A stretch of 41,669 bases of DNA from a virus: IMG/VR virus record IMGVR_UViG_3300028297_000008, positions 1 to 41,669 of that record. The stretch is one strand, 5' to 3'. Below the pieces are notes generated by a model. It did no database searches and was not told where the DNA came from. It worked only from the letters and a program-made list of their open reading frames with translations. Made by a program: the position numbers and the translations under genes. How positions within the stretch are numbered: position 1 is the stretch's first letter; every line of letters starts with the position of its first letter. Below are positions 7,757 through 29,204 of this stretch, piece by piece.

Positions 7757-7785
7757 AATGTAACATATATTTTGGTGTTTGTCAA
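7757..7785 (-). promoter_or_regulatory. Sigma70-type promoter
   Basis: Minus strand TTGACA (7785-7780), 17-bp spacer, TACATT (7762-7757), upstream of the 7266-7724 gene. The -35 overlaps the 3' end of the 2OG oxygenase gene. Confidence 0.65.
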
Positions 7786-8339
7786 CGATTAATGAAGTAG
7801 AATTGGTTGATCGAAAAACGTCCTTTACCAATAACTGTGGATACTTCATGTTGCTCAAAACTTGGAAATAGAATAATAGTATTGTTATCCATGTGCGGAG
7901 TATATTCATACTCTGGGAACTTTAGTTCTCCGCCTGTAAATTCTTTGGGTACTTTCCAAAATGTAGTTACTGCACTAATTGTTGCATGATCGGCATGATG
8001 TGCATATGAACTACCATCTGGATAGTAATTTACCTGTGTTAAATCCTCATTAGCCATATCCAAATATTTCATAAAAGGATTTTCTTTTAGTTCATCTGTA
8101 ATACTATAAATTAATCTGTTTGCTTGAAGTGTATGACTTTTGGTTCTGTCATCTTTGTAATACCAATCCAAACTTAATCCAAGCATTCCATTGCTTCGTG
8201 GATCACCTGTTGCTCTCTTGTCTGCAAGAACAGGACTTAATTCATTAAGTTCTTTCCAAATTAAACTTTCATCACGTGGCGAATAGTAATCATATATAAT
8301 GGTATGATTAAAAGGCACGGTTAGATTTATTATTCTCAT
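7782..8339 (-). CDS. 2OG-Fe(II) oxygenase (prolyl-4-hydroxylase-like), leaderless start
   Basis: 185 residues. The iron ligands are in SYAHHADHATIS (HxD), followed by GGELKFPEY, the distal His in FPSFEQHEV and the 2-oxoglutarate Arg in GRFSINQFYF. This is the PKHD/P4H arrangement of Fe(II)/2-oxoglutarate hydroxylases. The substrate is unknown. The ATG lies exactly 6 nt after a perfect TATAAT with a TTGACT 17 bp further up, so the mRNA should start at the ATG with no leader. Confidence 0.82.
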   Translation of the reverse strand: MRIINLTVPFNHTIIYDYYSPRDESLIWKELNELSPVLADKRATGDPRSNGMLGLSLDWYYKDDRTKSHTLQANRLIYSITDELKENPFMKYLDMANEDLTQVNYYPDGSSYAHHADHATISAVTTFWKVPKEFTGGELKFPEYEYTPHMDNNTIILFPSFEQHEVSTVIGKGRFSINQFYFINR

Positions 8340-8381: not shown

Positions 8382-8455
8382 TGGCAGAGGACCAAGGAAT
8401 TGAACCCTGTCTTGCTGGGTTGGAGCCAGCCGTGCTACCGTAACACTTGTCCCCT
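8382..8455 (-). tRNA. tRNA-Trp (CCA anticodon)
   Basis: 74 nt, folds as a full cloverleaf. Acceptor AGGGGAC pairs with GTCCTCT (one G-U), discriminator G, encoded CCA end. The anticodon stem GCTGG/CCAGC closes the 7-nt loop CTCCAAC with anticodon CCA. The T arm CAGGG/CCTTG encloses TTCAATT. Acceptor start and discriminator agree with bacterial tRNA-Trp. It lies 6 nt beyond the stop of the glycine-zipper gene and is probably processed from the same transcript as the tmRNA. Confidence 0.93.
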
Positions 8456-8460
8456 ATATA

Positions 8461-8874
8461 TTACTTTGTAAAACGTAAACTGTAACTTCTACCGTTATGT
8501 GTAAAACGGACGGTTGAGTGTGAATACACTTCAGCCTGTGATTCGTTATAACGTGTTTCTACAGTACAGAACCTTGCAGTTCCTGATTTGGCTTTACTAT
8601 TGTTGTGTCCAATAATGCCTCCAAGTAGGGCTCCAACTGCTCCCCCATTCTCAACATTTTTGGTTACGTTATTACCAATGATGCCACCTACGATTGCACC
8701 AGTTAACATGTCTCCTGACTTGTCCCCTGATACTGGTCTGTCTGTGCATACTTGCACTTCATATGGTTGCTTGTTAATAACAGTTTTGTAATGGTCTTGC
8801 ACTACTGCAATCTCAGCCTGTGCTGATGATACGGTAGCCATAAGAAAGGCTCCTGCTAAAATACCTGTTCTCAT
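8461..8874 (-). CDS. Exported glycine-zipper protein (17-kDa surface antigen-like)
   Basis: 137 residues from ATG 8874 (GAAGGACA site upstream); the longer frame to 8949 would run into the tmRNA and is rejected. A signal peptide ends at AQA. The core carries GXXXG repeats (GDMLTGAIVGGIIGN, GGAVGALLGGIIGH) typical of the glycine-zipper/rickettsial 17-kDa antigen fold. The C-terminal domain has a pair of cysteines. It probably inserts in or spans the outer membrane or periplasm. Its place between tmRNA and tRNA-Trp means all three may be co-transcribed. Confidence 0.72.
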   Translation of the reverse strand: MRTGILAGAFLMATVSSAQAEIAVVQDHYKTVINKQPYEVQVCTDRPVSGDKSGDMLTGAIVGGIIGNNVTKNVENGGAVGALLGGIIGHNNSKAKSGTARFCTVETRYNESQAEVYSHSTVRFTHNGRSYSLRFTK

Positions 8875-8924
8875 TTGATTGTCCTTCTCTGCCGACGGCT
8901 TTGTTAAGTGCAACTTTTCTGTTG

Positions 8925-9175
8925 CCAGGTAAGTTGCCAACCCCGTCACATAGTTAGACTATGCGGCAAGAGCAAAGTTTTCGTTTGCGTCTATAGTTTT
9001 GCTTGATTTACGGTCATCGCCTACCGGTAACTCCACAATGCCTAATCCGCCTGTCGATCCTACATCACCCCCTCAAAGCACACCGTGATGTGTTTTAAGT
9101 GATTGGTGGAGGTGCCGGGAATTGCACCCGGGTCCAGTTCGTTGTCGCCACGCTTCAACGTTACAATACTATTTA
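8925..9175 (-). ncRNA. ssrA: Permuted (two-piece) tmRNA
   Basis: Read on the minus strand, the acceptor piece comes first (to 9104). It has a T arm CCGGG/CCCGG and a 3' strand CACCTCC-A-CCA. A 31-nt intervening hairpin (9103-9073) follows. The coding piece then starts at 9072 with GGGGGTG, which pairs with CACCTCC to give a 7-bp acceptor stem whose third pair is G-U, the alanine identity element. The tag frame at 8988-8959 encodes ANENFALAA followed by TAG, with the stop inside a CATAG/CTATG hairpin. This order is the circular permutation known from alphaproteobacterial tmRNA. The outer ends are approximate. Confidence 0.9.
8959..8988 (-). other. tmRNA proteolysis tag reading frame
   Basis: Resume codon GCA at 8988-8986, then Asn-Glu-Asn-Phe-Ala-Leu-Ala-Ala and stop TAG at 8961-8959. 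The LAA end is the ClpXP-type degron. With the charged alanine the tag would be AANENFALAA. Confidence 0.88.
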
Positions 9176-9182
9176 AACATCT

Positions 9183-9482
9183 TTAGGCTAAGATGTCAAC
9201 CTCTTTTTTAACTTTTATTGCTTTTTTAGGCTGTTTAATTGGTTCTAACCAACTATCTGCTATGTAGGCTTGGGGACTTGGCCCAAGTAATGTTGTGATG
9301 TCTTCTGCTTCTATCCACCAGTAATGGTCAGATATTAAGCATTGGCAAGGCATACCTCTGAATTGGAATTGCTCGCCTTTTTCAAACTTTCCTATATACT
9401 CTTTTACTTTTACTATCAAGCCAACATTTTGTGGTCGTATGGAAAAAGTGATGTGGGCTACATCGCCTTGAGTACACTTCAT
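9183..9482 (-). CDS. Hypothetical protein
   Basis: 99 residues, likely a small beta-rich domain (VGLIVKVKEYIGKF, FQFRG, HYWWIEAEDI) with two cysteines at MPCQC and a Lys-rich C-terminus. Conserved-looking GPSPQAYIADSWLEPI tail. No family named. It follows the cold-shock gene by 4 nt and ends just before the tmRNA. Confidence 0.6.
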   Translation of the reverse strand: MKCTQGDVAHITFSIRPQNVGLIVKVKEYIGKFEKGEQFQFRGMPCQCLISDHYWWIEAEDITTLLGPSPQAYIADSWLEPIKQPKKAIKVKKEVDILA

Positions 9483-15146: not shown

Positions 15147-16760
15147 TTAATTTTTAATTGATACTTTGTATGTAAAGTCGGCATTTTCACTAACCACGGT
15201 GTTCTTCATTCTAATTGCTAACGTGTCGTTAACAGTATCAGAATTGATATCAAATAGTTGTGCTTTTAACTCTAACTTGTCTGCAATTCCTGCATCTCCG
15301 TTATAGTCATATGTGTCACTGTATGTTACTGAGTCATTGCTTTTGTTAACAATAACTTCTAATATACCTTGACGCATAGCATCTACTTGGTTACTCTTAT
15401 ATTGGTATTCAATAATGTATGTACGAGTATAGTCACCTGGTAGTCTAAAGATAGTTTCAAATGAGTTCTGTTGAATTGTTTGTATCTTATTACTAAAACT
15501 ATATCCTGAATGGATTGGTCCTTGTACTTCTGAAATGTAAGGTGTAGTTTGGAAAGCAGTATCTAACATAAGATCGTTTGTTCTGCTAAACCAATCGCCA
15601 CAAGTCTTGTTGCCTTCCTGTACACTATTGATAATAGTGTAAGCCGCCGCAGTACTTGTACCGCCGTTGTTACCTACATTTAAAAATTTGTTATTTGAAC
15701 TTACATTGTATCTGCCTGTTTGGAAAATGATTGCGTTTCTATCAATGTTACTAAATGTAGAACTTTCAAACAAGTTTCTTTGTGGTCCTGTTGATTGTCC
15801 TTGAGCACCTACGATTGTGTTCTCTCCAAACCATACTCCGTATGATAAAAGATCAAACAAACAATTTGTAAATGTATTTTCGTATACATCGTCATCACTC
15901 TTAACACCGTGAGCAAAGCCATCAATCTTAACATCATCAAACAAGTTATTGAAACAACCAACAACTGTACTTAGGTTGTCCATGCTAACTCCAATACTTG
16001 CCGCAACAATACCTATGCCTGATGTCCACGGTCCTTTTATCTGTAAGTTCTTAAACACACTGTTCTTACAACTTACAAGTTCAATACCTGTGAAACTTCC
16101 TAAGTTGTGTTGTAGTGTCATGCCTTCTAATGTAATGTCTTGTGCTTGTGTAAGTGATGTACTTGTACTGTCATCAGCATAGTTGCCTGGGGTACTGTTA
16201 CTGTTCACTGTAGTAAAGATAGGATAGTTGCCTGTCTGTATAATAAATGTTTTGTTTCTACCTGCACCTTTGATAGTTGCGTGTGGAGGTATCTTAATTG
16301 AGTTTGAAATGTTATATGTACCTGCTTCTAAAACAAGTGTAACTCTACTTTGTGTTGTACCTTTTGAAGCAGTGTTAATAAACAACTGATCAATAGCACG
16401 TTGTAGTGTTGAAGTTTGATCTGAACCATCACCTATTCCACCGAAAGACTTAATGCTAACGATGTCATCTAATCTGCTTTGAAGTGTTCTTTTAATTGGT
16501 CCACTAACTGTTGCACCAGTTTGGATTGTGCCATCTTGATAAGTGTATTGATCTGCAAGTGTAAAAAGGTTATCGTTTTCAGTTAATACTTTTGTATTAC
16601 CTACTGCCGGTGATCCTTCACTAACACTGCCGTTACCAATGTATAGTTCTTGTGAGTCTACTGCCCAGCCAAGTTCACCACCTGCAAGTTGAGGTATTCC
16701 TGAACCACTGTTTTTGCGTCCTCTACGTATTTGAATTCTTGATATTTGAACTACAGCCAC
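15147..16760 (-). CDS. Tail fibre / parallel beta-helix protein
   Basis: 537 residues. Residues 1-60 form a phage fibre attachment module (IQIRRGRKNSGSG, LAGGELGWAVDSQELYIGNG). From about 95 on, a right-handed beta-helix of the pectate-lyase/tailspike type begins (IKSFGGIGDGSDQTSTLQRAID) and runs through many N- and G-rich coils to about 420. The C-terminal 110 residues look like a separate beta domain. It probably binds or cleaves host surface polysaccharide. The start codon is GTG with GGAGT upstream and a GATAAATA promoter octamer 26 nt before it. Confidence 0.85.
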   Translation of the reverse strand: MAVVQISRIQIRRGRKNSGSGIPQLAGGELGWAVDSQELYIGNGSVSEGSPAVGNTKVLTENDNLFTLADQYTYQDGTIQTGATVSGPIKRTLQSRLDDIVSIKSFGGIGDGSDQTSTLQRAIDQLFINTASKGTTQSRVTLVLEAGTYNISNSIKIPPHATIKGAGRNKTFIIQTGNYPIFTTVNSNSTPGNYADDSTSTSLTQAQDITLEGMTLQHNLGSFTGIELVSCKNSVFKNLQIKGPWTSGIGIVAASIGVSMDNLSTVVGCFNNLFDDVKIDGFAHGVKSDDDVYENTFTNCLFDLLSYGVWFGENTIVGAQGQSTGPQRNLFESSTFSNIDRNAIIFQTGRYNVSSNNKFLNVGNNGGTSTAAAYTIINSVQEGNKTCGDWFSRTNDLMLDTAFQTTPYISEVQGPIHSGYSFSNKIQTIQQNSFETIFRLPGDYTRTYIIEYQYKSNQVDAMRQGILEVIVNKSNDSVTYSDTYDYNGDAGIADKLELKAQLFDINSDTVNDTLAIRMKNTVVSENADFTYKVSIKN

Positions 16761-17480: not shown

Positions 17481-18038
17481 TTATTTCCTCTTATATTCGA
17501 TATCGTAAACGACAGTACGTCTAATACTGTCGGTAGGATACACACCGTGCCACACTTTACCTTCAAGGCATACTATGCCTCCTTGTACACTTGGAAAGTG
17601 TTGTGGGTGTTGGTATCCATTGGGTTCTGGCATTATTGAAAAAAGCATACCGTTAAACTTATTCTTTGTATTATGATATATTGGAACATCATCTAAGTGT
17701 ATAACGGCACTAAAAGTATTCTTATCCATATCTCCTTGATGTACATGAAGTCCTTGGTATCCACCTTTTTGATAGTAGATGATCCAAGATTCAATACATT
17801 TGAATTCGGTTATATTTTTAAATGCAAGTTGCTGTTCAAGCCATAGAAAGAATCTATCTTGTATTCTTTGGTAGTCTTGATTATCTTTTGGAATATAGAT
17901 CTGCTCGCCATCTACAGTTGTAGTGCCGGTGCTTTCGTCATCTGCAATAATTTTATCAAATAATACTTCAAACTCTCTATATTGAGGATAGAGAGAATGC
18001 CAAGTCCATTGATCTGCAACTTCTTTATAATTTTCCAT
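17481..18038 (-). CDS. 2OG-Fe(II) oxygenase-like protein
   Basis: 185 residues. Candidate iron ligands are in GLHVHQGDMDKN and the distal His in EGKVWHGVYP, followed by RRTVVYDIEY with the 2-oxoglutarate-binding Arg. The fold is the double-stranded beta helix; the substrate is unknown. Driven by a perfect sigma70-type promoter at 18063-18091. Two nt separate it from the downstream nuclease gene. Confidence 0.72.
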   Translation of the reverse strand: MENYKEVADQWTWHSLYPQYREFEVLFDKIIADDESTGTTTVDGEQIYIPKDNQDYQRIQDRFFLWLEQQLAFKNITEFKCIESWIIYYQKGGYQGLHVHQGDMDKNTFSAVIHLDDVPIYHNTKNKFNGMLFSIMPEPNGYQHPQHFPSVQGGIVCLEGKVWHGVYPTDSIRRTVVYDIEYKRK

Positions 18039-18110: not shown

Positions 18111-18410
18111 TTATTGCATTGCATTGGCAGTAGCACTTTGAGCCATTTGGTCAACTGTGTCATCGCCTTGTGCAGGTTGTTGTGGTTCTTCGCCACCTTT
18201 GAGTGTTATGCCTTCAGGATCAAAACTTGCAACAAGTTCTTGTACTATTGGATCCTGGTCGTAAACTGCTTTGAAAGTCTCTTGGTCATGTTGCTCACCG
18301 CCCATGTTATCCATGTAACCGTTAAGTTCGTCCCAAGAGACTTTTTCAGTTTTGTTTTTTACAAGTAAATTTAAGATTTTCGTTAGATTGGGTGAAGCAG
18401 ACTCAATTAC
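18111..18410 (-). CDS. -1 frameshift extension of the putative scaffold gene
   Basis: This open frame has 99 codons. It begins at the A-tract at the end of the upstream gene and has no ATG, GTG or TTG until an ATG at 18314 that lacks a ribosome binding site. Residues before that ATG look coding (VSWDELNGY runs directly into MDNMGG), so separate initiation at 18314 is unlikely. The product is acidic and Gln/Asp-rich at its C-terminus. It is best read as the C-terminal part of a fusion made by -1 slippage at 18416-18410, about 360 residues in total. A simple indel splitting one gene is the alternative. Confidence 0.6.
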   Translation of the reverse strand, partial: VIESASPNLTKILNLLVKNKTEKVSWDELNGYMDNMGGEQHDQETFKAVYDQDPIVQELVASFDPEGITLKGGEEPQQPAQGDDTVDQMAQSATANAMQ

Positions 18411-19192
18411 TTTTTTTTTGAGTCAGCACCTCCAAGTATAGTACCAAGTCTACGTGAACGCTCTATGCTTTCTCTTGCTGGTCTACCTGCGTCTTCTTCG
18501 CCACCTGTTGCTGGCTCTGCCGCGGCAAACTCATCACCACCTTCTTCTGCTGGTGCTTCTGCTTCTGCTTCTGCGTCTACTGTTGGTTCCATTTCTGGAT
18601 CTTCTTCTGCTGGTGCTTCGTCGCCCATTGTTTCTGGTGCACCCTCGCCTGTCAGTACGGCTACGCCGCCTGTTAATGCGTCACGTGTTGTTTCAAGTGT
18701 TGTGAATAATTGTTCTAATGCTGGCTTAACTGTTCCTATGAATGATTCAGATTGTTCACTGCCCATTTCATCTCTAATCTTGTCGCCTATTTCAAGCATT
18801 GATTCTGTTTGCATTTCTGCTGTGTCTTCCATCCAGCCTGTAACTCTGTCAACCATGTCCTTTGCGGCCATAACAAGTGTTGCTTCTTCTTCAGCGCCTT
18901 CTGTGATTGCTTTGTCTGCTTCTACATCGCCTTCTACAATATGTGCTCTTTCATCAATTGCCTGGTTAATAACTTTAAGGAACATACTTTTCTTTTGGTA
19001 ATCTTCGTTACCTACTGCATCAAATGATTCGTTAGTTTCGATATCATGTAATGCTGTACGCAATTTGTTTCTTGCGTCCATTAATTGATCAGTTGAAAAC
19101 TTATCTACGTCTACTGTTTGTCCGAATCTTTTATCAAGGCTTTCGTTCAAGCTCTTTGCTGTGATCGGTTTATTAAAATGGCTTATTCTCAT
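18407..19192 (-). CDS. Putative prohead scaffold/core protein (zero-frame product)
   Basis: 261 residues. An N-terminal half of predicted helices is followed by a low-complexity acidic region (about 195-245, rich in E, A, P, D, G) and a short basic end SKKK. Highly acidic, helical, Ala/Glu-rich proteins near small basic internal proteins are typical of T4-type prohead cores (gp22/gp67/gp68-like), but sequence similarity is not demonstrable by eye. The gene ends in nine A residues with a dnaX-like slippery site. Late-type GATAAATA at 19216-19223. Confidence 0.55.
   Translation of the reverse strand: MRISHFNKPITAKSLNESLDKRFGQTVDVDKFSTDQLMDARNKLRTALHDIETNESFDAVGNEDYQKKSMFLKVINQAIDERAHIVEGDVEADKAITEGAEEEATLVMAAKDMVDRVTGWMEDTAEMQTESMLEIGDKIRDEMGSEQSESFIGTVKPALEQLFTTLETTRDALTGGVAVLTGEGAPETMGDEAPAEEDPEMEPTVDAEAEAEAPAEEGGDEFAAAEPATGGEEDAGRPARESIERSRRLGTILGGADSKKK
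18410..18433 (-). promoter_or_regulatory. Predicted -1 programmed frameshift signal
   Basis: The slippery heptamer A-AAA-AAG lies in frame at 18416-18410, directly before the zero-frame TAA (18409-18407). A perfect Shine-Dalgarno-like GGAGGT (18433-18428) sits 11 nt upstream, the same arrangement that stimulates slippage in E. coli dnaX. GACTCAA and TTGAGTC flank the A-tract as an inverted repeat. A -1 shift opens the 99-codon extension. Confidence 0.65.
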
Positions 19193-23647: not shown

Positions 23648-25348
23648 TTATCTTTGTACCGATCTATTGGCTTGAGTAAACCCGCCCTTGCCTCGGTTGA
23701 CAAGTTTCATATCACCCTTGGAACCAGTTACAACATAACCTTCACCACCCGGTTGTCCGTTAATGGTTGCTTTTACATCTGCATCTTGGTTGTTCAATTG
23801 ATCAATGATGTTATTTTTTACATTCATGATGCCGTTTACGGTATCCCATATAGCACTGAATGTACTTACGTTCTCACTAATGTACTCTTGTATCTTTCTT
23901 TGTTTGTTTGCACTAACCTTAGAAGATCCTATCCATTTAATAAAGTCACGGCCTAAGTTTTCTAAGCCGGAGTCTACTTTCTGGTTTACATAAGTGTACA
24001 ATATGTTCGGGAAGTCAGTAACTTGCATCTGTTTAAGTTTTGCTTTGTCAAGGAAACTGTCAATAGCACTACTGTTTCTTGAGATGATGTTCTCTAACTT
24101 CCCTATTGAACTTTCATCAACCTTTACGGTTTCTGAAACTGTTACTGGAGGAATCACAAGTAAATCTGTACCCTCCATAATGTCAAAGTCGTTGAATGGT
24201 TGTTCGTTACCATCTTCGTCAATGACTCGGTGAACTACTACCCCTATCTTACTTTTATTAATCTCTTTACCTAAATCACTATCTGTCTTAACTGTGTATT
24301 GTACAATGTTAGGTTTGAAGTGATACATGTTTTGTTCTTGTTGTGGCTCATGGAAGTATAGCATGTCTCCTTTAAAGTAACCTTTAAAGTTTTTAGGTGT
24401 AGCCTTTTCCATAATAGGCCAAGCCTTTGCCATGTTGGCTCCTAATGCTTTAAAACCTTTAGGATCATTCTTTGCTCCGGGTCTGGCCAAGAACATTTTG
24501 TTAACTGCTTCTGGACTCTTTGCTTTTCCATCATATCCTTTTGCGACAAAGCCTCCTTTGTCTGTGAGTATAAACTCTCCATTTTCATCGCGGCCAAAAA
24601 TGACTGCGGGAGATCCATCCCATTTGATTTGTACATTGTCTGTCTTCTCCGCCATTGCTCTAATTTTTTGTAATGCTCTCTTTGCACCTGCACTACCATT
24701 AAAGAAAATTAAATCTTCTATGTGTTGGATACGTGCATCTAAACTTTCTAACATTCTTGTACGGTTCTTGTCTTTGTTAAAAAAGTCTTTACCTTTAACT
24801 TGGTCTATTGGCTTAATGCTTCGGTCAGTAGTTTGTGGTCTCCATACTTTATCTGTTGCATCATATTGATATGAAAGTCTGTTCTCTGGGTGAATAAACT
24901 GTGCACCATTTGTATAATCATCTACGCCTCTAATAGGATCACTAACTAATTTAGGATCACGTTTCTTAGGCTGTGCTTTTTGTTGTTGTGGTTTTGCATC
25001 TCCACCGTCTTGTTTCTTTTGAAACTTTTGATCTGGTCTGTCTTTTTTAGTTTGTGCCAAGTCACCGTCTACTGGCTCTGCTCCTGGTTCAGAGTAAGCA
25101 CCTTTGGCGGCTCCTTTGATTTCACTACCTGCATCTTTAACTGCACCAATCAGGCCAAGCACACTTGCATCTTTCTTACCTGATCCAACTGCGGCCAAGT
25201 TTCTTCCTGTGTTAAAGTTTTTCTTAGCGGCACCGGCTACTTTCTTAATACCTTTTGTAATCCCCATATCATTAGGATCAAACTGTGCAGGCTTTTTGTA
25301 ACCGCCCTGTGTATCAGGTGCTTCTTTTTTTATTTCACTAAACTTCAT
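23648..25348 (-). CDS. Nucleic-acid-ligase-like (covalent nucleotidyltransferase fold) protein
   Basis: 566 residues. Residues 1-180 are a low-complexity Gln/Lys/Asp-rich region starting MKFSEIKKEA. The central domain carries KWDGSPAVIFG (motif I, K-x-DG, adenylated Lys candidate), FKGDMLYF (motif III-like) and, near the C-terminus, GEGYVV and MKLVNRG (motifs IV and V). This order matches ATP-dependent DNA/RNA ligases and capping enzymes. The wide gap between motifs III and IV (about 200 residues) is unusual. The start overlaps the stop of the pol-beta-like gene, so the two are translationally coupled. Ligase activity is inferred. Confidence 0.6.
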   Translation of the reverse strand: MKFSEIKKEAPDTQGGYKKPAQFDPNDMGITKGIKKVAGAAKKNFNTGRNLAAVGSGKKDASVLGLIGAVKDAGSEIKGAAKGAYSEPGAEPVDGDLAQTKKDRPDQKFQKKQDGGDAKPQQQKAQPKKRDPKLVSDPIRGVDDYTNGAQFIHPENRLSYQYDATDKVWRPQTTDRSIKPIDQVKGKDFFNKDKNRTRMLESLDARIQHIEDLIFFNGSAGAKRALQKIRAMAEKTDNVQIKWDGSPAVIFGRDENGEFILTDKGGFVAKGYDGKAKSPEAVNKMFLARPGAKNDPKGFKALGANMAKAWPIMEKATPKNFKGYFKGDMLYFHEPQQEQNMYHFKPNIVQYTVKTDSDLGKEINKSKIGVVVHRVIDEDGNEQPFNDFDIMEGTDLLVIPPVTVSETVKVDESSIGKLENIISRNSSAIDSFLDKAKLKQMQVTDFPNILYTYVNQKVDSGLENLGRDFIKWIGSSKVSANKQRKIQEYISENVSTFSAIWDTVNGIMNVKNNIIDQLNNQDADVKATINGQPGGEGYVVTGSKGDMKLVNRGKGGFTQANRSVQR

Positions 25349-28139: not shown

Positions 28140-29204
28140 TTAAGATAAAGAGTTCGCTATTTCTCTTTCTGCTTCGGTTGCAAAGTTTTTGTCCCAGTTG
28201 TCTAAATGCTTTTTCATAAAGCGATTAAACACAGGAGGTATCAATGCTAACGCAAAGAGTGTAAAGTAACCTACACCTGTGTTAGGTGCGCCTACTTCGT
28301 CAAGTTCCCAGAAGTGTGTTTCACCTCTGTCATGATGATCAGCCTGGCGACCAATCTCAATGAAGAACCAACTTGTGAATAATGTAGAATTATCCCATGA
28401 GTGTCTATAATCTATTGGCTCGCTTTTAACACGACATAGACCATAGTGTTCAAGATAGTTAAGTGCTTCTAACTCGAAGTTTGATATTACCCAAACTGCG
28501 GCAAGACATGCAACACCTAACCAACCACCTGCAAAGAAAAACAATGCAAGGCTTGGTACACTCATCATGTATCCTCTTATCCATCTGTTGCCAAATGATA
28601 TAAAAGGTTTACCCAAACGTTTTAGTCTACCCTTCTCCATTTCAAACAGGAACTTAGATTGTCCTAAGTGTGATTTGATATAGTGTGAATAGATATCACG
28701 TCCACGAGGTGCAGTTGCAGGATCGTCTTCACTTGCTAATTCCAAGTGATGATTGTACACATGAGCATAACAGAAATGTGCTGAACCTGATAGTCCCATC
28801 ATCCAACGGCTTATTATAAAAGCAACGCCTTTGGTGTGCGATAGTTCATGCCCATAGATTATACCTATGCCTGCAAATATACCTGTTGATAACACAGCAC
28901 CTAATAGTTCTGCACCTGCCATACCGTGAAAGATTTGGTAAGCAAGAACTACCTGTAGTGCTACGAACACTGGCAACATCATATACATAACCATATTCTG
29001 TAGCCATGGGATGCCTAAGGTCTCACCGTTCTCATCAACTGCTCCACGTGTCTGGACGTTGATAAGGGTGTCAAGTATAATGCCTACTCCCAATAAGCCT
29101 ACACCTGTCCATACCCATGCTCCACCTGCCATCACTCCTGCGAGTGTAGCCAATATCAGCAATGGTGCTATGAAGTACCTTATGTTTACGAAAAGTTTTT
29201 TCAT
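28140..29204 (-). CDS. AlkB-like membrane di-iron monooxygenase
   Basis: 354 residues, about six membrane helices. The histidine boxes of the integral-membrane alkane hydroxylase/desaturase family are visible: GHELSHT (about 118), HVYNHHLE (about 148), NYLEHYGL (about 254) and GRQADHHDRG (about 288). The family binds two irons and uses O2 with electrons from rubredoxin to hydroxylate alkyl chains; no rubredoxin is encoded here. The last box reads RQADHH where typical AlkB has LQRHSDHH, so one His is replaced. Substrate could be alkanes, fatty acids or other lipids. Two promoters lie upstream. Confidence 0.82.
   Translation of the reverse strand: MKKLFVNIRYFIAPLLILATLAGVMAGGAWVWTGVGLLGVGIILDTLINVQTRGAVDENGETLGIPWLQNMVMYMMLPVFVALQVVLAYQIFHGMAGAELLGAVLSTGIFAGIGIIYGHELSHTKGVAFIISRWMMGLSGSAHFCYAHVYNHHLELASEDDPATAPRGRDIYSHYIKSHLGQSKFLFEMEKGRLKRLGKPFISFGNRWIRGYMMSVPSLALFFFAGGWLGVACLAAVWVISNFELEALNYLEHYGLCRVKSEPIDYRHSWDNSTLFTSWFFIEIGRQADHHDRGETHFWELDEVGAPNTGVGYFTLFALALIPPVFNRFMKKHLDNWDKNFATEAEREIANSLS

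Follow-up and report, generated by a model that had tools for sequence, protein, structure and literature searches.

A circularly permuted tmRNA gene of the alphaproteobacterial type in a marine T4-like phage, probably inherited within a viral lineage

The stretch of DNA analysed here (the window) comprises the 41,669 bases of the IMG/VR virus record IMGVR_UViG_3300028297_000008, which is classified as linear. Its minus strand carries a complete permuted (two-piece) tmRNA gene at positions 9164-8907, in which the acceptor half with its CCA end (9104) is encoded upstream of the coding half (5' end 9072). The gene, its promoter and its neighbours are laid out as follows.

9183-9482, minus strand: phrog_2529 gene of unknown function, the conserved upstream neighbour, whose end carries the promoter (PHROGs; relatives)
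9171-9199, minus strand: sigma-70-like promoter, TTGACA (9199-9194), 17 nt, TTAAAT (9176-9171), inside the 3' end of the upstream gene (sequence)
9104-9164, minus strand: acceptor piece, with the P2 5' strand GTAAC..., GGAC, T arm, acceptor 3' strand and ACCA (Rfam RF04321/RF01849; compensatory changes in relatives)
within the acceptor piece, minus strand: T arm, CCGGG-TGCAATT-CCCGG
9114-9108, minus strand: acceptor 3' strand, CACCTCC (sequence)
9107-9104, minus strand: ACCA (sequence)
9073-9103, minus strand: linker of 31 nt, a hairpin (Rfam; predicted fold)
8907-9072, minus strand: coding piece, with the acceptor 5' strand, D region, P2 3' strand, PK1, tag ORF and 3' pseudoknot (RF01849 to position 355 of 355)
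9072-9066, minus strand: acceptor 5' strand, GGGGGTG, giving the G3-U pair in the acceptor stem
within the coding piece, minus strand: D region, GGATCGAC, fitting the GG-TCGAC feature
within the coding piece, minus strand: P2 3' strand, ...GTTAC, and PK1 stem, CGGT/ACCG
8988-8959, minus strand: tag ORF, GCAAACGAAAACTTTGCTCTTGCCGCATAG, encoding ANENFALAA-stop (TAG), a tag with a hydrophobic end (sequence)
8988-8986, minus strand: resume codon, GCA (Ala) (sequence)
8910-8937, minus strand: 3' pseudoknot, stem GCAACTT (8937-8931)/AAGTTGC (8916-8910) enclosing the conserved CCTGGCAACAGAA (fold)
8461-8874, minus strand: cargo gene between tmRNA and tRNA-Trp, glycine-zipper 2TM (PF05433), secreted/lipoprotein-like (Pfam)
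8382-8455, minus strand: tRNA-Trp (CCA), the downstream partner in most close relatives (ARAGORN)

Two Rfam covariance models matched the gene far above their gathering cut-offs. The tmRNA_permuted model (RF04321; cut-off 47 bits) aligned to 9164-8959 on the minus strand over its full length (model positions 1-213) with 118.5 bits and an E-value of 1.1e-22. The alpha_tmRNA model (RF01849; cut-off 50 bits) aligned to 9203-8907 on the same strand with 114 bits and an E-value of 1.6e-30, covering model positions 1-355 of 355, and this match across the full model places the copy in the alpha_tmRNA subtype. Every feature of the permuted tmRNA family that can be tested in a sequence is present. The matches bear out the first-pass annotation, which had proposed a phage-encoded permuted tmRNA; the alphaproteobacterial type is supported by RF01849. 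Its positions for the CCA end, the 31-nt hairpin linker and the coding 5' end were all right, and the acceptor stem GGGGGTG/CACCTCC with the alanine G-U pair and the tag ANENFALAA-stop are present as claimed. The element extends at its 3' end beyond the 8925-9175 that it gave, with the pseudoknot stem running to about 8910; the promoter occupies 9199-9171. ARAGORN reported only the tRNA-Trp in the window and missed the tmRNA. With the same settings the program identified permuted genes that encode this very tag in L045, L048, L052, L053 and L085, all close relatives, and the miss is therefore a matter of program sensitivity, which we discounted as counter-evidence.

TTGACA-N17-TATAAA/TTAAAT occurs at the same place in most relatives. 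A consensus promoter scan, which requires an A at position 2 of the second hexamer, did not list the window promoter. The predicted transcription start is at about 9164, the G of GTAAC that opens P2 and the first base of the acceptor piece, and 5' trimming of this piece may thus be unnecessary. We dropped the reading of the -10 element TATAAATA in relatives as a purely T4-late promoter, since TTGACA is found 17 nt upstream there too (L029, L030, L044) and a sigma-70 promoter accounts for the element. An inverted repeat, CATCTT...AAGATG in the window and also in L054, occupies the spacer that separates the -35 and -10 hexamers (9171-9199, and the corresponding place in relatives) and is possibly an operator. 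In the predicted fold, the linker forms an ACAC/GTGT hairpin stacked on the acceptor stem, and it is presumably excised by tRNA-type processing.

The structure has been maintained among viral versions of the gene. Acceptor-stem and T-stem pairs are formed in 98% of cases among 57 distinct versions, compared with means of 85% (acceptor) and 70% (T stem) and maxima of 90% and 75% in a shuffled control in which the 3' strands were dealt out at random; for most loci the CCA and acceptor pairs 1-4 were set by the search pattern, so that the independent evidence comes from acceptor positions 5-7 and the T stem. Both vary freely and with compensation (GTG/CAC, GCG/CGC, TGG/CCA, CTG/CAG, TCG/CGA, ATG/CAT and others). 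The acceptor pairing, whose failure in related phages the first-pass annotation had named as the observation that would speak against it, is intact at seven of seven pairs in 56 of the 57 versions, the exception being an extraction failure. The outer P2 stem likewise occurs in compensated variants (GTAAC/GTTAC, GTAAT/ATTAC, ACAAT/GTTGT, TGATTC/GAATCA), and the 3' pseudoknot stem is replaced by GGTCC/GGACC in L044 and by CACT/AGTG in L046. The middle of P2 is poorly paired in the window's own subtype, and the outer P2 stem is absent from the predicted minimum-energy fold of the window copy. All 11 members of the tree clade that were checked encode ANENFALAA, in six synonymous codings that differ solely at third codon positions and in the stop codon, which indicates that the peptide is under selection. 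Taken together, the compensatory changes that keep the acceptor, T and outer P2 stems paired and the synonymous-only variation of the tag make it very probable that the window gene is functional.

The surrounding genome is that of a phage. Among the window proteins, PHROGs and Pfam identified ribonucleotide reductase subunits, glutaredoxin, 2OG-Fe(II) oxygenases, an exonuclease, an endolysin-like protein and a virion protein. The DUF6267 protein (23648-25348) has distant relatives in T4-like cyanophages, Methylophilales phages and Pelagibacter phages, at below 30% identity among the matches listed, and so points to no single host. We found no isolate relative for the phage structural protein at 18407-19192, and BLASTN of the tmRNA region against isolate phages returned short conserved pieces only. 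Four proteins that match 2OG-Fe(II) oxygenase families (1339-2572, 7782-8339, 17481-18038 and 28140-29204) and a fatty acid desaturase are encoded in the window and are likely auxiliary metabolic genes. A pectate-lyase-like protein at 15147-16760, which has an N-terminal match to Mtd_N (major tropism determinant) and no PHROGs match, is probably a tail fibre or depolymerase. End repeats were not found on the contig, so the phage genome is probably incomplete.

Among 22 virus records with a related DUF6267 protein, 13 carry a tmRNA above the cut-off; the rest are mostly short fragments. At protein identities down to about 65-80%, close relatives share the order nrdB-glutaredoxin-HAD-CSP-phrog_2529-tmRNA-(variable cargo)-tRNA-Trp-2OG oxygenase-phrog_27048-endolysin, in which the tmRNA occupies the slot between the cold-shock/phrog_2529 gene pair and tRNA-Trp; more distant relatives retain parts of this order. 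The cargo slot holds a different gene in relatives or none. The tRNA-Trp stays 3' of the tmRNA in L029-L032, L045, L048, L052-L056 and L095 while the intervening gene changes. A Trp tRNA of phage Melnitz, which also has a two-piece tmRNA, has been analysed previously (PMC9004378).

We examined the origin of the gene in a tree of 258 tmRNAs built from the acceptor piece, the first 88 bases of the coding piece and the 3' pseudoknot. The host set combined a pattern-selected sample (mostly SAR11) with the top-scoring hits of BLAST in 385 alphaproteobacterial genomes and of the model in 190; some host sequences were not extractable for the tree. The window copy belongs to a clade of ten sequences, all of them viral (support 1.0), and the 148 alphaproteobacterial tmRNAs lie elsewhere, with weak deeper nodes. 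An earlier tree with SAR11-biased hosts gave the same result as this one, which had a wider alphaproteobacterial sample. The all-viral clade and the genome position kept across divergent phages point to an old phage gene. The GGGGGTG stem and the nine-residue tag of the window resemble SAR11, and in a SAR11-dominated sample SAR11-like bacteria carry the similar nine-residue tags ANESYALAA, ANDKFALAA and ANQKFALAA, which share the AN start and LAA end. An ancient SAR11-like alphaproteobacterial source is therefore plausible.

The first-pass annotation had concluded that the gene was captured from a host lineage with the permuted gene (alphaproteobacteria, cyanobacteria and a few others), which is too simple: given the all-viral clade and the conserved position, a recent capture is not supported. 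Recent acquisition from the phage's current alphaproteobacterial host would account for the Rfam type, the GGGGGTG acceptor stem and the SAR11-like nine-residue tag, but no sampled host sequence is as close as the viral relatives, and the best full-gene host match by BLAST in 385 Alphaproteobacteria genomes (a sample centred on a SAR116 genome) covers 89 nt at 76% identity; we consider this origin improbable. Still less credible is that the locus is a non-functional or decaying remnant of host ssrA, for instance a piece of an attachment site or a hitch-hiking host sequence. Integration commonly takes place at tmRNA genes and ssrA fragments occur in prophages (PMC9004378), a tmRNA pseudogene/attP feature is among the isolate-phage BLASTN matches, and ARAGORN passes over the window copy. 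Against this, the gene lacks none of its parts, from the promoter through both pieces to the tag and pseudoknot; compensatory and synonymous changes have preserved its structure and tag in divergent phages, and it occupies a fixed site between phage genes. In addition, a PHROGs scan of 30 window proteins, most of them from the larger ORFs, found no integrase, and the window copy is not near any sampled host tmRNA. The remnant reading is thus largely refuted already.

How such a gene would work can be outlined from the tmRNA family. In two-piece tmRNAs, cleavage of the precursor at the CCA and ahead of GGGG yields two pieces that remain paired; the G-U pair directs the addition of alanine, and the molecule enters stalled ribosomes together with SmpB. 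For the window copy, the host-type promoter, recognised as a sequence match, would yield a precursor with the acceptor piece at its 5' end, from which host tRNA-processing enzymes might excise the 31-nt linker, so that a coding RNA and an acceptor RNA with a CCA end remain. The two RNAs would stay joined by the acceptor stem and P2, as the covariation of these pairings suggests. The G3-U acceptor pair would make the molecule a substrate of the host alanyl-tRNA synthetase, and with host SmpB and EF-Tu it would enter ribosomes stalled on broken messages during infection, add (A)ANENFALAA and free the ribosome, while the LAA end would route the tagged fragments to ClpXP-type proteases. The likely benefit is that ribosomes are kept available and truncated proteins cleared while the phage degrades host DNA and messages. 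An overview of the two-piece mechanism is given in PMC11915505. SmpB was not found in nine related phage records, a search in which control genomes matched, and host SmpB is presumably used; in view of the probably incomplete genome, SmpB could also be encoded elsewhere. The use in ribosome rescue during infection that the first-pass annotation had proposed is a sound inference. The phage tmRNA might instead act mainly against the host, as a competitor that redirects tagging so that host proteins are degraded or the host tmRNA is outcompeted for SmpB. Selective tagging of host proteins has been proposed for the related two-piece tmRNA of Melnitz (PMC9004378), phage tags are diverse (9 to 29 residues here), and a tagless form in phage DS6A inhibits endogenous tmRNA (PMC11915505). 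We regard this role as unlikely, given that the window tag has an ordinary SAR11-like length and LAA end, no sequence feature suggests selectivity, and all structural parts for normal trans-translation are conserved. The reading that we prefer, with a probability of roughly 90%, is that a marine T4-like phage encodes a functional, circularly permuted tmRNA of the alphaproteobacterial type, which acts in ribosome rescue as outlined and is inherited within the phage lineage rather than newly captured.

The permuted gene order alone makes the tRNA-like part one contiguous cassette, GGAC...TCGAC, which comprises the T arm, acceptor 3' strand, CCA, linker, acceptor 5' strand and D region. The cassette of L044 is 95% identical to that of the window and identical to that of L046 over 86 of 86 bases, linker included, while its other parts are at background level: 59% (window) and 55% (L046) in the P2 5' half, 53% and 49% in tag and pseudoknot, and 51% and 47% in the upstream DNA. 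The P2 halves of L044 match the L029/L037 type. L054 presents the opposite case, with a tag and pseudoknot identical to those of the window and a cassette that is just 77% identical. Cassette and linker at least 90% identical, combined with unrelated P2 and tag, occur in 29 pairs among 104 distinct viral sequences, by our estimate from about five independent groups, and in none among 135 host sequences. A near-identical cassette and linker with unrelated other parts is seen in the tmRNA regions of L044, L046, L037, L111, L118 and L067. The simplest reading that the sequences suggest for the discordant pairs is exchange between phages; alternatively, a phage-wide constraint on the linker might cause the likeness, or the combinations might be assembly chimaeras. 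We tentatively put forward, at slightly less than even odds, that marine phages exchange the tRNA-like cassette of about 80 bases as a unit, while P2, the pseudoknots and the tag stay with the recipient. If so, phage tmRNAs would be assembled from interchangeable parts. We found no description of such exchange in the literature, of which our search covered a part.

Phage two-piece tmRNA genes are known already. A previous survey found 53 of them among 133 unique phage tmRNAs, 50 of the 53 from marine or aquatic phages, and described those of Melnitz and related phages (PMC9004378); the 2025 tmRNA database holds 79 phage sequences (PMC11915505). The single gene described here agrees with published reports and overturns nothing. 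The inheritance within a phage lineage, the tag diversity and the cassette pattern are modest additions, of which the last is possibly new. Together they offer a clear comparative case of marine phages that retain a long-lived viral gene for a ribosome-rescue RNA of their own, which would operate with host SmpB and protease. At least 120 virus contigs in one collection carry an alphaproteobacterial-type tmRNA, and the family is a usable data set for asking why phages have tags of their own, of 9 to 29 residues, and whether the permuted order eases swapping of the tRNA-like part. Long tags that end in LAA are encoded in L037-L040 and L143 (ANDNALSNVTFVDFSAPVTAVNEDFALAA, 29 residues) and in L044 (ANENFAPEAFTSLDMSMDRELLAA, 24 residues).

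Among known systems, the closest are the marine T4-like phages Melnitz (Methylophilales) and Mosig and HTVC008M (Pelagibacter), which, like the window, have a complete permuted tmRNA of the alphaproteobacterial type (PMC9004378; MT647606, KC465899). Their tags are also short and end in LAA, but GEDNFALAA in Mosig and ANFNEYALAA in HTVC008M differ from ANENFALAA. Mosig lies on a separate branch of the tree, and its tmRNA neighbours a nuclease and a late-transcription factor instead of the cold-shock gene, phrog_2529 and tRNA-Trp. A glutamine riboswitch has been reported in Melnitz, whereas no Rfam riboswitch family reaches its cut-off in the window. The two-piece tmRNA of Alphaproteobacteria such as Caulobacter and SAR11 (RF01849, RF04321) shares with the window copy the acceptor-linker-coding order, the alanine G-U pair, P2, the CCTGGCAACAGAA pseudoknot and a tag with AN start and LAA end. 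Unlike these, the window copy is phage-encoded and lies outside every sampled host branch, and its tag differs from those of hosts, among them ANESYALAA and ANDKFALAA in the sample dominated by SAR11. Streptomyces phage MeganTheeKilla encodes a tmRNA with the similar short tag ANSNFALAA, and actinobacteriophage tmRNAs of this kind presumably have the standard one-piece gene order, unlike the permuted gene of the window.
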